A stretch of 64,000 nt of DNA from Hygrocybe punicea (lineage: Eukaryota > Basidiomycota > Agaricomycetes > Agaricales > Hygrophoraceae): positions 1,550,001 through 1,614,000 of the forward strand of contig OY744463.1 in the NCBI GenBank assembly GCA_963556145.1. Reading direction: 5' to 3'. Below, piece after piece: positions 790 to 19,450 of the stretch. The first letter of the stretch is position 1. Each line of letters opens with the position of its first letter. Below the pieces are notes generated by a model. The model made no database searches and was not told where the DNA came from. It was given only the letters and a program-made list of their open reading frames with translations. The translations under genes were made by a program, and so were the position numbers.

Positions 790-3684
790 ATGACTAGAGG
801 TGAATCCTCTCGAAATCCTGATGGAGAGCACCCCAGCACTGGCGTGAGGCATTCGTCCACGCGATGGGGCTTGTCATGGCCGTTCGGAAAAGCATCGTTG
901 CCTCTGAAGTCGCCAGATGGAGCCAGCTTTCAGCCTCCCATCAGCCATAACTCGAACAGCCAAGCGAATCATGATATCCCCGCCAACGGTACTCAGGTGG
1001 ATTCAACTGATGACTGCACGACAACCTCAGTGAACATCTTCGATAGACTGAAGGAACTTCGGAAGCTAATGACGGTGCACAATATTGACTACTAGTAAGA
1101 CAAAATTAGACATTCTCTGCACTTCCATCATTAATTGTCGTACTAGTGTCATTCCGAGCGAAGACGCTCACCAGTCGGAGCATATTGCATCGAGTGACAG
1201 GCGGCTAGAATACATCTCGGGGTGTGTGAACGCCAACCTTGGATACTTTATCTTATGCCATCTGATCAGACATCAGATTCGCTGGGACCGGCCAGGCTGT
1301 GGTTTCATTGATAGCCGCTTTCCTCATCGTAGACAAACGTGAAGCAGGGAAACAGTTACTCGACCTCAATTGGCAACTCACCGTTGTAGACACGCCACTC
1401 GATTGGATTGATTGGCTCATCGTGAGTTTTCTGTGATTCAGTGGAATGCCTCATTATAGTACTACCAGGATCTAGTCAAGCGTTCGCGCATAGGAATCGA
1501 CGCTCGCATGATCTCCGTTGAGACGGCTAGACGTCTTATCCCAAAATTGGCAAGCCAGTCGTCCAAGCTAGTCTTCCCGCCGCGCAACCTTGTCGATCTT
1601 ATTTGGACGGAAAGACCTCCAAAACCAAAGGCGCCCATTTTTGTAGAACAGATGGAATCTGCAGGTGATCACTCAAAGTAACACAGATTCCAGGCTGATG
1701 CTAATGGGTGCCAAGGCAAAAATGCATTAGCCAAGTTAAATGTCCTTCGAGACTGGCTCAAAGTGCAAGCAGCTGCTGTAATATCGTCTCCTTCGATGCT
1801 CGAACCGACCCCAGCTGTTGCCACTGTCATTGCTTCTCTCGCAAGGATTGGTGCGCTGACGTTTCGTGGGATGACTCTTATATCTGCTAACGTTCTTTAC
1901 AGCTGATTTACTCAACCTGCGTGGTTCTGATACCCCCTTCAGCCCACTTTTCCGATCGTACTTGTTTGTCGGTCAAGAGCGTGTGGTGCTTTTCATCAAT
2001 ACCGCAAAGGTTAACCAAGAAGTGGGTGAATATCTCAGAGAATTGGGTGTCGGCCTCATGGAGTACAACGATTTCTGGGCCTTTTTGCGAGGGAGGGAAT
2101 GGGGAGATGAAAAGGTATGACATGGCCCGAAAACTAACGCTGAACCTAACCTGGACTTTCTGTTGTTCTTAGATTCTCATATCTCCTCAGACATCTTATG
2201 CCATCTCATTGATGCTCACCAAAGACCGATATACCATCATTGATCATATGAGCTCGATCAGGAATGAGGATGAGCTCCAAGACATTCGAGATACAAATAG
2301 TCCTCACCTGAAACTGCCGAACGTTTTTGTTGATACCATTCCTCTTAGTCTGAGCACACTTCCCAATAACACACAAGATGTTCGCCATATTCCTGTTCCT
2401 CGTGAGTCGAGTGCCTTAACTACTAATGTGCAGTATCCCCGAGCGAGAATTTTTTATTAGGTGGTGACAGCTCGAATCTTCTTAATCTCACGGGTAAGGT
2501 CTTTCGAGAAGACGAGTACCCTTCTGCCCGCGGCGGGTTTGCAGAAGTTTGGAAATGCAGCTGGCACGGTGCTTCAGAGGAACGCAAAGTGAGTTTTGAC
2601 AGGCGGAATCGTCGTGACTCAGAATTTGTGGTTCTTCTCTTCAGGTTGCTGTCAAGGTGCTTCGGTTATGTACGGATGACTTAGACCAGGAAGATAAAAT
2701 AAAAAGAGTAAGTTTTAGGCGTCAGCCAGATGTGGTTAGCTGTAACGAACTGTTCCAGCGATTACGCCGAGAGCTTGGCGTTTGGCAGAGGTTGCACCAT
2801 GAAAATGTTCTACCATTATATGGCACTACCGATGACTTTGGTCCTTTAACGTCTATGGTATGTCCGTGGTTGGAGAAAGGGAATGTCAGGAAGCACCTCG
2901 AGCTCGTTGGTGATATACTAACAGTTTCTGATCGTTTGCAAATTGTTAGTTCTCTCTCTTGGCCTGTATAGACAGCATTCATGAACGCCTTTGTCACAGA
3001 TTCTGGATGTGGCCGCTGGGTTATCATACCGTTAGCCTTTATTGAACAGGGTTGATCGTACTTGTGCTCACTATGACTTCGGCGTGCAGTGCACTCGCGC
3101 TCCATTGTTCATGGGGACCTTACTGGGGTGAGGCCCTCGAATTGCTTTATTGCTTGTGTTAACAACAGATCTCAATCGCCTAGACAAACGTCCTGATCAC
3201 TGATGAAGGCAAAGCTTGTTTGTGCGATTTTGGCCTGTCTTGCATTTTAGTCGAGTTCCAAGGCAACTCATACTTTTCGTCGACTATCGGTGGTTCTATT
3301 CGTTGGGCAGCACCCGAGCTCTTCCGGTCCCAGGAAGATCATACAACTACAGTGACCGTCAAAACTGATATGTATTCATTTGGCAGTGTTGCGCTAGAGG
3401 TAAACCAGACTGGACGTCGGTTTTGCGTTTTTTTTGTGCCCTGACACCCTCTTTCGCAGATTCTTTCAGGTCGTGTCCCATATCATTACTTGAAGAAGGA
3501 TACGGAAGTCCTCTTTAAACTGAATGAAGGCATCAAACCTCGCCGTCCTGCCGCATCATTTGTGACTGAAGCACAGTGGAAATTTATTCAGCGGTGCTGG
3601 GATGACATACCAGATAAACGGCCAAACACCAAGGAAGCCGCCGATTGCGTCCGAACGTTACACAGTCTTTGTTCCAAGGATTAA
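790..3684 (+). CDS. Chimeric protein: Xaa-Pro aminopeptidase N-terminal (creatinase-type) region fused to a TKL-like protein kinase
   Basis: The model has fourteen exons: 790-1094, 1147-1221, 1277-1421, 1460-1664, 1716-1850, 1903-2114, 2173-2401, 2461-2588, 2645-2707, 2759-2944, 3000-3030, 3090-3127, 3184-3399, 3460-3684. It encodes 730 residues and every phase agrees. Residues from about 83 to 415 follow Xaa-Pro aminopeptidase domains I and II (VIPSEDAHQSEHI, LLNLRGSD, ISPQTSYAISL). The metal-binding pita-bread domain III never appears. The frame passes instead through the 2402-2460 intron into a kinase domain (about 455-722) with VAVK (Lys482), HGDLTGTN (Asp581), DFG (599-601) and APE. HGD in place of HRD is usual in agaricomycete kinases of this class. 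The kinase looks catalytically competent, while peptidase activity should be absent. Alternatives are a mis-spliced gene pair or a decaying aminopeptidase beside a kinase, but the shared phase argues for one gene. Confidence 0.75.
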
Positions 3685-3855
3685 AACTTACGTATCTGTA
3701 GTGCAGATGTGGCGGTTGGTAACAATAATGGAATCTCGCAGTGTGTATTCTCGTAGTACTCGTCCTCACTTAAATATTGGGACTACCCCACCGTAACTGA
3801 GGCACCCAGCTTGCTCAGAAACATGGCGAATGCGTCTTTCATCATGTTATGATTC

Positions 3856-5309
3856 TCAATTCTCTGCGACTTTAACTACTAATTTTCCTGCCGTTTTACC
3901 GCCGGTAAGATCCTTTTGTGCCTGTTGTACGCCCTGAGCTGTGAATGGATATTCTTTGAAGACCTTGATTTTGATGATCCCATCCGAGATCAGATCAAAT
4001 GTCTGTCCACCGTAATAGCGAACTTCCTCTGGTGTGTAAATATAGTTGCTCATCCTGATATGCGTCAAGTATCAGTTACTCCATCTCGGAAACAATAATG
4101 TAAAGACAAACGTAGGTCGCAGGAGCTTGACGTTTTTCTCTGTTAGTTTCAAAGGCGGGAAAGGAGGCACAGCCCCGGAAGCATTTCCAACGGACACAAT
4201 CGTCCCCTTGCGTCTGATCAGTTTGAAGTTGTTTTCAAACCTGATGATAGAATACAGGGTCAATGATGACGACTGCACGAGTGATCATCTGAACGAACGT
4301 ATCTCTGCCTACGCCATCAAAGACGGCGTGTACCCCTTCCCCGTTGGTAATTTCAAGCACCCTCTGCACGGTATCCTCTACCGGATAAAGAATAACGTGA
4401 TCGGCGCCATTTGCCTTGGCCAGTTCAGCTTTTTCTTTATTCGAGGTCGTTCCAATAACAGTTGCGCCCCGATGTTTCGCAAATTGCGTAAATATCAAGC
4501 CGAGGCCGCCAGCGACCGTGTGCACAAGCACGATATCGCCTTTCTGGACGTTATAGGCTTCCGTCATAAAGGAGATGGCCGTGATGGACTGCAGCAAGCC
4601 AGCAGCAGCTGTCAAGGTTGACACAGAGGACGGGACGGAGAATACAGTTTTCCATGGCACCGATATGTACTCTGCGTGGGCACCTAGGAAATCCTTTTGA
4701 TCGAAGTGTCAGGACTTGTGAAAGACCTTGAAAGAGATCAACCATACTACGACAACTTTGCCTCCAGTCTGGTAGCCCCGTTTCTTGTAATCTTCGTCAT
4801 CCACAATCGATGGATCCGTGGGCAAACCAACGATGATCCCAGCGGCTTCTTTGCCAATAATAGCGGGGAGTGTTTCAAAGGGGTACAGTCCTTGTCTGAA
4901 TGCCAAGGTAAAACTCTTTGGCGAATTGCTTTGGCAAGCTGGTTCAAGTTGACCTCACCGGTGATAGGTATCTATAAAATTGATACCTAGATATTGAACC
5001 TATTCGACCGACTTCAATTTCGCCAATGTTGACAGGATAAGTAGATTATGTACGTACCTTGATCACCACGTCTCCAGGTTTCACCTTTGGAAATGGCACC
5101 GTCGTCTTCTCGATAACGTCAAATCCACCGGTTTTTGCGATTGTAATGGCTTGGATGGACGACGGAAACGCTGAGGTCATGATTGTTCTGGGCTTTGAGA
5201 AATGACTAGCGAGTCTGCGAGACGATTGGCCCTGCTGACATAAAGAAACAAGCCGAGAGGTTGCCGGTAAGAACTTGAAGACGAAGACGCTATGGTGAAT
5301 AGCAGACAT
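3856..5309 (-). CDS. NADPH:quinone oxidoreductase, zeta-crystallin / MDR family (ZTA1-like)
   Basis: Six exons on the minus strand: 5058-5309, 4959-4999, 4748-4895, 4299-4693, 4112-4240 and 3856-4054. The spliced protein shows the medium-chain reductase order: GINFIDTY, LPAIIGKEAAGII, the Rossmann motif AGGLGLIFTQ, GATVIGTTS, DGVGRDTF, LIRRKGTIVSVGNASG and the terminal Gly-Lys-rich end. The structural and catalytic zinc cysteines of alcohol dehydrogenases are absent, as expected for quinone reductases. It should reduce quinones with NADPH in one-electron steps. The first ATG adds about 40 basic, Ser/Arg-rich residues that could be a mitochondrial presequence. A second in-frame ATG, just before the sequence TSAFPSS, would give a cytosolic form. 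The 41-nt second exon is easy to miss but is required for the NFIDTY motif. Confidence 0.9.
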
Positions 5310-5395
5310 CAAAAGCTGGGTTTATAGGAACAACTTGAAGTTCTACATGAAAGAAATACTGAGCCGAAACAGGCTGTGTGGTTTAAATCCATTGA

Positions 5396-6709
5396 TCATT
5401 GGACAAAGGCCATGGCCAAAACATCGTACATCAAGAGGATTTGTTCATCCCGTTGCACCATACTAGGCCTCTGCTCTCTCAAAGAGTCAATCTCCTGCGC
5501 TACTAGATCGTCTTTAACTGCATCAGGCAGCGGGCCAAGTGGCGACGGCGGCAGGCCTGGCAACGCCGTCACTTGGGCGGAAGGAGCACCTAGAGGAGCC
5601 ACCGAGAGCCGATCGTACGCGCGGAGGAGTGAAGCTAATGCAATAAATGCACCTGTTCGACCTACACCAGCGGAACAGTTAACCATTATCGGTGGATCAA
5701 GGTCCATCTCCAGATTGTCTGTGGAAGGTTGAAACTCAGAGGCGAGGGAGAGGTCTTTGTTCGTGCTATCAACCAGCCGGATAAATTCCAGGAAGCCGGC
5801 ACGATCCTCCCGCTGCGGTACGCCGTGGTCAGGCCAAGCGCCGTACAACAAATGTCTGAAAATAATGGGTCCCTCGTTGTCTCCTTCAGTAGTCGGCGTG
5901 GAGCCGGAAACAGGGTGAATGGATACAGTGCTTCTGATACATTGTGCTTCGTTTATGGTGTGACTAGCCAGGAGCGTCACCTTTAGTACAGGTGCGGATG
6001 ATCCTTGTTCTGGCAGTACGACATATGACTGGCCTACAGTGCTGGGGAAGTAGACATGTGCTTTTTGTCGGCCCTGCTCAAAGTTCTGTGTAAGTTGGAC
6101 GACGGTGCGGATCCTGCTCTTCCCAGTTTGGTTCGTGGACGAAGAGAGTTGGAGACAGGTCGGTGGTGAGGTTGTAGATTGTAGGAGTAAGCTGAGGAAG
6201 ACGTGCGTGGTGTTGGGCAGCGGTGCCTGCGTTGCGATCCACCATTTCCCTCCAAACAGTTCTCGTACCCAGTTTGCGTTGATATATCGACCCCCAGCAC
6301 TATCTCTACCGTCGCCCGTACTATCCCGCACCTCCGCCAGCTCATCAACCCAATCCCCGACGATAACACGCGTCCGATCATATGGCTCTAGATCCAGGTA
6401 TCGATTACTTGGTTGGTTCCAGGGTTTGCAGCCGAAGGAAACAGAGTAATGTTCGATATCACCAACAACCTGGCTCTTTGGAGTTGTCGTCGCTAGGTTT
6501 GGAGGCACTTTCCTGGAAACGCGGGACGGATTAGACCTTTGTCTTGAGATAGTTCGGGCAGACTCGCGAGTTAGTTCGCGGGTTGCAAGGGTACGAAGGA
6601 CGGTTGTAAGATGGGAGGAAGAAAACGAAGCTTTTAGCCATGTCGGGATAGCGGTACTTGACATCGATGAACGGTGGGGGTTGAAGAGATAAGTGAAGAA
6701 GTCAATCAT
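5396..6709 (-). CDS. Protein tyrosine phosphatase (classical, receptor-like fold), variant signature VNCSAGVGRTG
   Basis: This is a single-exon gene of 437 residues, unusual among its intron-rich neighbours. It contains the N-terminal PTP landmarks NRYLDLEPYDRTRV and YINANWV, the WPD loop (WPDHGVP) and the P-loop CSAGVGRTG with catalytic Cys near residue 345, plus a late Q-loop-like region. It should dephosphorylate phosphotyrosine in signalling proteins, probably MAP kinases as yeast Ptp1-3 do; the substrate is inferred. The histidine that normally precedes the catalytic cysteine (HC) is asparagine here (VNC). The N-terminal 70 residues are basic and Ser/Thr-rich with no domain I recognise. 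Its ATG lies only 41 bp from the ATG of the divergent NR2C2AP-like gene. Confidence 0.9.
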   Translation of the reverse strand: MIDFFTYLFNPHRSSMSSTAIPTWLKASFSSSHLTTVLRTLATRELTRESARTISRQRSNPSRVSRKVPPNLATTTPKSQVVGDIEHYSVSFGCKPWNQPSNRYLDLEPYDRTRVIVGDWVDELAEVRDSTGDGRDSAGGRYINANWVRELFGGKWWIATQAPLPNTTHVFLSLLLQSTTSPPTCLQLSSSTNQTGKSRIRTVVQLTQNFEQGRQKAHVYFPSTVGQSYVVLPEQGSSAPVLKVTLLASHTINEAQCIRSTVSIHPVSGSTPTTEGDNEGPIIFRHLLYGAWPDHGVPQREDRAGFLEFIRLVDSTNKDLSLASEFQPSTDNLEMDLDPPIMVNCSAGVGRTGAFIALASLLRAYDRLSVAPLGAPSAQVTALPGLPPSPLGPLPDAVKDDLVAQEIDSLREQRPSMVQRDEQILLMYDVLAMAFVQ

Positions 6710-17211: not shown

Positions 17212-19450
17212 ATGGTCAGGCTGTTGGAACAAATCAAACGAACTCTCTATCTCACGCGACAACTTTGTTTCCAGGACCCACGCCGTCAGGATCCGGAGGA
17301 GTTATACGTTAAGCAGGATAGGATCGGTGCAGCACTTTTTTGCTTCACCATTTCACATTTTCAGATATTTCATCGCCAATAGGGAAAGGATCTTTTGGCG
17401 AAGTCTACAAAGGGTCGGTCGGTACACACACACCTCCGAAGCTCAGCTGACCACCCCCCCTGAACCATGTAGCTATGATAAACGGACTCAAAAGACTGTG
17501 GCTATCAAGATAATTGATCTCGAAAGCGCAGAAGATGAAATAGAGGATATACAACAGGAGATTCAGATCCTCTCACAGTTGGATTCGCCACATGTAACCA
17601 AGTTTGTCGCTCCCGTTGTTTTCACCAATGCGTAATTGAAGGACGATATTTTCTCGATGCAAGATATCATGGGTCTTACTTGAAGGGTTCGCATTTGTGG
17701 ATTGTAATGGAGTCCGTTCATTTCCTGGATCCAAGCAATGGTACACCGTAAATGACTTTTCTTTTGCAGGTACTGCTCTGGTGGTTCTTGCTCGGATCTG
17801 GCGAGATTTCTTCGTTGGTATCATCCGTTAAAATCTAAGGTATTCCACAGATGAAGCCTGGCGTATTTCGAGAAGAGTATATCGCCATCATCGTCCGCGA
17901 ACTCCTTCGTGGCTTGGGTTACCTTCATTCCGAAGGTAAACTCCATCGGGATATCAAAGGTTACTCTACAAGCTACTCCCGTGATTCTGGCTAATGCACG
18001 TATTCACCTAGCTGCCAATATCCTTCTCTCGGCAACGGGTGAAGTCAAGCTTGCCGATTTCGGCGTCTCAGGACAACTCTCCGGAACCCTTTCCGCTAAG
18101 AAGAACACGTTTGTTGGCACACCGTATTGGATGTCACCAGAGGTGATAAAACAAAGTGGTTACGATCACAAGGCCGATATCTGGAGTCTGGGAATTACTG
18201 CCATCGAGTTGGCTAAGGGAGAGCCTCCATATGCTGAGCTCCATCCAATGAAAGTGAGTGTCTTGTGAGCAGTTACATGAGCGGACTTTTTATTCTCTCT
18301 TCTTGGTGTTTATGGCAATCCCATCGAGTGATCGTCGCTAATTCAAGGTTGGGTTCCGTTTTGTCCTAGGTGTTGTTCTTGATACCAAAAAATCTGCCGC
18401 CGACACTAGAAGGAAACTTTTCAAAACCATTCCGGGAGTTTGTTTCTTATTGCCTTCAACGAGATCCTCGGGATGTGAGTCCAGATCTTCGGGTTGTCCA
18501 TAGTACTCTAGTTTGATCTCCCAATGCAGCGTCCGTCTGCGCGAGAACTTCTGAAGCACAAGTTCATTCGAATGGCGAAAAAGACGAGTTACTTGACTGA
18601 ATTGATTGACCGACACGAGCGATGGAAAGCCGAAGGTGGAGAACGATTGGATGAAGAAGAGCAGAACCCGGGACCCGATGCGTATGATTTTCGCCATTTT
18701 CGTCTGTCCCCTGCTTTAATAATTCGCAATAGCTCTGCAGGTGGTGACCCAGACGACCTGTGGGATTTCGGAACAGTCCGTCACGTCAACGGACCAGGGA
18801 CAATCGGGCGCACATCCAATCCCATTCAGGTATCTGGCCCACCTCTGACTTGGGAAAATGATGGCACGGCACGTACAGGGTCAGATGGTTCAACGGGCTC
18901 GACTTTCAGAAACGTAGGGTCGTCGTCGTCGTCGTCGTCGTCATCAACCGCGTCCTTTAGATCATCGCTCACAACCAAAGGCGAACTTCCACCGTTGCCG
19001 TCTACCCCGACTAAATATGATCAAGAGGCGACTGTGCGGCGGATTCCTAGCGATGGCCTTGATGATTCTAGAGTGAGCCATCAGAAGTCGTCCTCCGACG
19101 AGTACGAAGACTACGGAGATCAGTACGCGGATACGTATTCTGCGCGGAGCATCCTGCCACAAAAGACAGTGCTTGCGCCAATGGAGGACGATATACCTGA
19201 TACTACGATGCTGGAGTCTGTTGTTGTACCTGCCATATCCTCGGTCAGTTCTTCTACCATTACCACATGATACGGCTACTTGAGTCTCGATATCTAGCTA
19301 TTCCCACGAGTATCTTCACAGGAAGCACGTGTTGCTCTCAACGCTCTTCGACACGCTTTTAGGGAAGCCGAAAGAATCATTCCGGGTGTTACTATGGAAT
19401 TGGTCAACGAGATTGTAGATTCGGTTGAACATGTCGAAGATGTTGGGTGA
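17212..19450 (+). CDS. Ste20-family germinal-centre-type (GCK-III / Sps1-like) serine/threonine kinase
   Basis: Ten exons: 17212-17326, 17383-17413, 17473-17601, 17664-17711, 17770-17800, 17851-17959, 18012-18253, 18370-18474, 18530-19243 and 19322-19450, giving 550 residues. The kinase domain is N-terminal, with [37 protein letters not shown] and [11 protein letters not shown] conserved [17 protein letters not shown] segment follows, then a Ser-rich linker encoded by a TCG/GTC repeat. The C-terminus is [13 protein letters not shown]...[10 protein letters not shown], typical of fungal Kic1/Sps1 relatives. It likely works in polarity, septation or sporulation signalling with an Mo25/Cab39-type partner. 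The N-terminus is uncertain: an alternative model splices directly after the ATG, because ATG is followed by GTCAGG and a ttccag acceptor. The intron after 17800 has a GC donor. Confidence 0.88.
18919..18944. repeat. (TCG)n trinucleotide tract inside the Ste20-type kinase
   Basis: About eight tandem tcg/gtc trinucleotides encode a poly-serine run in the linker of the kinase gene. The period of three preserves the frame. Confidence 0.85.

Follow-up and report, generated by a model that had tools for sequence, protein, structure and literature searches.

Does the start of this window encode a single protein in which the front half of an aminopeptidase P is joined to a protein kinase, and if so, where does each half come from? 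The window is a stretch of 64,000 nucleotides from Hygrocybe punicea that covers bases 1550001-1614000 of C3, one of the 42 contigs of a 92.2 Mb genome; the relatives of its proteins likewise point to an agaricomycete. The first-pass annotation had described seven exons encoding aminopeptidase P domains I-II, followed by a complete kinase with Lys, Asp and DFG residues in place, with all fourteen exon phases in agreement. This description is borne out, with one change to the splicing. The spliced model of positions 790-3684 (plus strand) comprises 14 exons and 13 introns with GT donors and AG acceptors, and it agrees in frame across every exon phase until the stop codon at 3682-3684. The acceptor of intron 3 is set to 1468, which makes this intron 47 nt long instead of 38, and the product is 727 residues long. 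Domains I-II of aminopeptidase P come first, a linker of some 38 residues follows, and a full TKL-type kinase completes the protein (Table 1). A Pfam search of the spliced protein finds both families above cut-off, with Creatinase_N at residues 86-203 (E 1.3e-10), Creatinase_N_2 at residues 223-390 (E 6.2e-31) and PK_Tyr_Ser-Thr at residues 456-712 (E 2.8e-44).

Table 1. Exons and linker of the spliced model, in window positions
Feature	Position	Strand	Content
Exon 1	790..1094	+	Start codon (first ATG of the frame open from 592), disordered-looking leader, onset of domain I
Exon 2	1147..1221	+	Domain I, contains PSEDAHQSEHIASSD
Exon 3	1277..1421	+	Domain I; loop facing the active site eroded
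Exon 4	1469..1664	+	Domain I to domain II
Exon 5	1716..1850	+	Domain II
Exon 6	1903..2114	+	Domain II, LLNLRGSD
Exon 7	2173..2401	+	End of domain II (SPQTSYAISL), junction at ~2289/2290, then linker
Linker, ~38 residues	2290..2462	+	Split by intron 7 (2402-2460)
Exon 8	2461..2588	+	Kinase N-lobe, glycine-rich loop; in-frame ATG absent
Exon 9	2645..2707	+	VAVK, catalytic lysine 479
Exon 10	2759..2944	+	Glu501; residue 529 is the first in-frame Met of the kinase
Exon 11	3000..3030	+	Part of the spliced model
Exon 12	3090..3127	+	HGD 576-578
Exon 13	3184..3399	+	Asn583, DFG 596-598, APE 624-626
Exon 14	3460..3684	+	End of kinase C-lobe and stop

The aminopeptidase homology stops at residue 395 (window position 2289), which the domain borders of the C. 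elegans enzyme place some 10 residues inside the catalytic domain. The best solved-structure matches of the front in a phmmer search are C. elegans APP-1 (E 5.1e-32) and human XPNPEP1 (E 1.1e-29). The alignment to APP-1 reaches approximately residue 329 of its renumbered chain, and the C-terminal domain of that enzyme spans residues 319-616 (PMC4404410). No match to the catalytic domain III was found after the front within the window's initial 20 kb.

The exons at the junction bear directly on whether the two halves are translated together. No in-frame Met occurs from residue 434, at the exon 8 boundary, to residue 528, so exons 8 and 9 require upstream coding sequence. A start codon belonging to the kinase alone, which the first-pass annotation had named as evidence against a fusion, is absent ahead of the catalytic lysine. 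A kinase-only start would lose this lysine unless translation began in the aminopeptidase exons; together with the open frame, this favors a single protein. The locus could instead give two transcripts joined in appearance only, one from a truncated gene resembling an aminopeptidase and the other from a kinase with its own start. Retention of intron 7 would lead to a stop at 2458-2460, and in exon 7 either Met370 or Met382 (2248) is a possible in-frame kinase start. However, intron 7 is of usual size (59 nt) with consensus ends, and Met529 lies past the catalytic Lys, so that a start or a splice from the aminopeptidase coding region would still be needed. We consider two transcripts distinctly unlikely. 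By eye, intron 7 also contains a second acceptor, GCAG at 2434, just past a TACTAAT branch-like site; its use would keep the frame but shorten the intron to 33 nt, and it was passed over. On the evidence of the gene model, the locus probably encodes one single fused protein, and we infer that one transcript spans 790-3684.

Several other loci were seen in the window. On the minus strand, exons at 3856-5321 resemble by eye a quinone oxidoreductase of the zinc-type alcohol dehydrogenase superfamily. A single-exon protein-tyrosine phosphatase (PF00102, E 7.3e-37) lies at 5396-6709, some 1.7 kb past the end of the kinase gene and on the opposite strand. Fragments of a second kinase are present on the plus strand at ~17850-18300; by motif, it resembles the Ste20/germinal-centre kinases.

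The front has a counterpart in the same genome. Contig C33 carries an intact gene for aminopeptidase P, whose 15 exons encode 845 residues, and each of the six introns in the front of the fusion lies at a position matched in this gene. The identity of the two over their common core is 63%. A 27-row tree joins them as sisters (support 96/83), with branch lengths of 0.94 for the front and 0.06 for the intact copy, a rate about 15 times faster, and the tree software cautions against relying on the position of so long a row. The introns of the two copies are 65-84% similar, a value that was given no weight because short gapped alignments score high by chance. A six-frame Pfam search of the genome found no Creatinase_N, presumably because introns break up the domain; a protein query did recover both loci. 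Taken together, the front is most likely, by sequence comparison, a duplicate of aminopeptidase P that arose within the fungus's own lineage and then changed rapidly.

A genome-wide search for an orphan catalytic half of this duplicate found none; the matches were the intact gene on C33, a gene on C40 and a partial copy on C35. The C40 locus (1924500-1931500) is a second aminopeptidase P gene in which front and catalytic parts are both present. The C35 copy (5002500-5009000) is a lone catalytic half, near-identical to that of the C40 gene. It was considered as the lost half of the front and rejected, as it derives from the C40 gene, which is not the parent of the gene in the window. Because the identity to the C33 gene is only 63%, the front is a distinct locus and not a misplaced piece of that gene. 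An assembly join of two loci is barely credible: apart from the oddity of the protein itself nothing favors it, whereas the junction lies within an open exon on a contig of 8.2 Mb and no detached catalytic half matching the front was found elsewhere.

In the kinase half, Lys479, Glu501, the HGD and DFG triads, Asn583 and the APE motif are all present, with HGD in place of HRD as in four aligned relatives. A 29-row tree places this kinase inside a 20-row clade that contains Cdc24-headed TKL-ccin proteins (99/96); two other kinases from the same genome fall outside the TKL-ccin clade, and the genome's kinase on C8 was excluded from this tree. The end branch of the fusion kinase measures 0.42, against a median of 0.37. 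The six introns of the kinase half match those of a paralog on C3 of the same genome, which has one extra. Also on C3, at ~6716.4-6719.2 kb (1390-4180 of the extracted locus, minus strand), lies a standalone relative of the fusion kinase, with a degenerate-looking second kinase-like stretch directly after it. Among the matches listed (best 120 of 1047), many of the top relatives are long and a number of them carry the source name TKL/TKL-ccin.

TKL-ccin proteins usually have another front. Six members were scanned and gave CDC24, RhoGEF or PH_10 matches, some below the Pfam cut-off, in a head of ~550-600 residues. A search for a Cdc24-like head of this kind in the 10 kb preceding the window and in its initial 20 kb found none. 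When three TKL-ccin heads were used as genome queries, the sole locus found was the Cdc24 locus on C33. With its CDC24 and PH_10 domains and a weak match to PB1, this locus is read as the true Cdc24 gene. Exon-wise searches may miss diverged heads, as most of the nine TKL-ccin heads compared are only 26-47% identical. Besides Cdc24, another PH_10 domain protein above the family cut-off is located on C35 (2760328-2760699, minus strand). The fusion protein lacks the Cdc24-like RhoGEF-PH head and has a kinase of the TKL-ccin clade. Two other clade members, P0177 and P0204 (Piloderma and Athelia by source names), also have no recognizable head. Head loss is therefore not unique to the fusion, and the aminopeptidase front was seen only there.

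The linker was compared with the region preceding the kinase in these relatives. Among the matches listed (best 120 of 1047), a SPxLLPxLF motif stands before the kinase in 56 of the 73 long relatives and in 1 of the 47 others. The fusion linker contains a relaxed form of this motif, a pattern picked post hoc that occurs in 441 of 200000 shuffles and in none of 144 aminopeptidase proteins. Scores for the linker as a whole vary with the method. A profile test does not support homology, as 13285 of 20000 shuffles score as high. Pairwise comparison gives moderate support: the mean score is equaled by 2 of 300 shuffles and 10 of 400 real tiles, and the best score by 43 of 300 shuffles and 52 of 400 real tiles. 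An origin of the linker from a TKL-ccin protein is likely but unproven on these comparisons.

Since the kinase belongs to the TKL-ccin clade and the head queries reach only the Cdc24 locus, a head swap on a conserved kinase looks likely. On balance, we favor a TKL-ccin kinase whose Cdc24-like RhoGEF-PH head has been replaced, in one protein, by domains I-II of a lineage-specific XPNPEP1-type duplicate. We infer that the old head was lost through the same event that brought the front.

Is the new front under constraint? Over 313 aligned codons of the front and the intact copy, pN is 0.203, pS is 0.581 and dN/dS is ~0.21 (bootstrap 0.13-0.31). Nearly all of the protein change falls on the fusion branch; if this branch is given all amino-acid changes and half of the silent changes, dN/dS becomes ~0.42 (upper bound ~0.62). 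Every indel relative to the intact copy is in frame. When 142 orthologs are used as reference, the front is altered in 5 of 43 near-invariant columns and 14 of 56 conserved ones, that is, in 19 of 99 conserved columns against 130 of 227 variable ones (Fisher 1.5e-10). Six of the 19 are clustered in 12 columns at or around the TDSRYWLQA loop, and a four-residue stretch close to the end of domain II is lost. The alignment places Arg78 of C. elegans APP-1, which contacts the inhibitor in the active site (PMC4404410), in this loop; the equivalent residue survives in the fusion, and the surrounding loop is eroded. Judged by these columns, the pattern is that of a fold preserved and an enzymatic contact released. 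Part of the constraint may predate the fusion, when the duplicate was possibly full length.

These values also bear on whether the gene is a recent chance chimera or a decaying pseudogene, as could be suspected from its fast-evolving front and from its presence in one genome only. At a pS of 0.58, however, there is no stop and no frameshift, the splice sites are complete, and the branch length of the kinase is ordinary. In a neutral simulation with at least 0.2 changes per site, at most 0.05% of 2000 runs were free of stops. Such a chimera or decaying gene is very improbable. A different possibility is promoter and first-exon capture, in which the front is translated but serves mainly as a passive fold and as the source of promoter and start codon, with the kinase working alone. 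The speed of the front relative to its sister, the disappearance of the active-site-facing loop and of the stretch near the end of domain II, and the headless clade members P0177 and P0204 would all suit this possibility. Nevertheless, a dN/dS well under 1 and the avoidance of conserved columns exceed what a passive remnant needs, unless the constraint is mostly older than the fusion, and capture appears rather unlikely.

The protein was compared with known systems. In domains I and II (63%, C33 copy) and in its six introns, the front is like cytosolic aminopeptidase P (XPNPEP1 type, M24B), but the fusion protein has neither domain III with its metal ligands nor a catalytic site, and its TDSRYWLQA loop is eroded. 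The kinase is 48-58% identical to the long, motif-bearing TKL-ccin kinases of Agaricomycetes and has normal catalytic motifs, whereas aminopeptidase P domains I-II occupy the place of their CDC24/RhoGEF/PH_10 head. Other relatives of the kinase are also joined to unrelated partners, namely DUF6593 (P0237), a Bud6-like domain (P0216) and a response regulator (P0215). The N-terminal domain of Spt16, in the FACT complex, is likewise described as a dead aminopeptidase-like fold used for binding, which retains the pita-bread C-lobe and binds histones (PMC4741192); in the fusion, the kinase stands in place of this C-lobe.

No creatinase-type domain was found among the kinase relatives in the best 120 of 1047 matches. 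Likewise, no protein with both domains stands among the best 120 of 311, of 1047 or of 4254 matches, the 311-match and 4254-match sets overlapping. A literature search for creatinase or aminopeptidase P fused to a kinase yielded no described protein, in agreement with the first-pass annotation, which knew of none with this architecture. Among the matches listed, the nearest source-named aminopeptidase relatives are 77-78% identical and others up to 86%. Because the nearest named relatives reach only 77-78%, failure to see the fusion in named genomes says little about sister species. Laccaria bicolor has a large TKL set, and domain organization differs among fungi, according to Kosti and colleagues (PMC2838846). 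Domain shuffling of TKL kinases is already known, and the aminopeptidase partner is, at the level of sequence, new among the proteins compared.

What might such a front do? Dimer contacts in the animal enzymes are made by the N-terminal domain as well as by the catalytic one (PMC5774706; PMC4404410), and the interface of the C. elegans dimer extends along its entire length (PMC4404410). Since these contacts include the N-terminal domain, a front made of domains I-II could bind to itself or to the intact enzyme. The C. elegans interface residues Lys136 and Glu301, placed by hand, are kept neither in the fusion nor in the intact fungal enzyme. By analogy, dimerization of the front is possible. 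A ligand-sensing front, as the first-pass annotation had imagined, fares less well. Apart from Arg78, the inhibitor contacts given in the available text of PMC4404410 are numbered in the C-terminal domain of APP-1. As most of the pocket belonged to the missing domain and the loop with the Arg78 equivalent is eroded, a role in sensing peptides is less likely.

We tentatively propose that the front folds into a module devoid of catalytic activity that serves binding and self-association. It may pair kinase copies and so permit trans-phosphorylation; alternatively, it may dock the kinase on the intact aminopeptidase P or on another partner. In either case, it would take over from Rho and lipid targeting. 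It is a bolder and unlikely step that the fungus's only TKL-ccin kinase has been freed from Cdc24-like Rho signaling and rewired to peptide or proline metabolism through a dead module pairing with the enzyme or with itself.

Mushroom fungi can carry big, little-studied sets of TKL kinases, and this fusion illustrates the recruitment of metabolic enzymes as signaling parts. Because the probable replacement head is a defined, foldable module and the cell also contains its intact sister enzyme, what the head does becomes testable. If the proposed rewiring is true, the TKL-ccin protein would amount to a head swap performed by nature on a conserved kinase of fungi.
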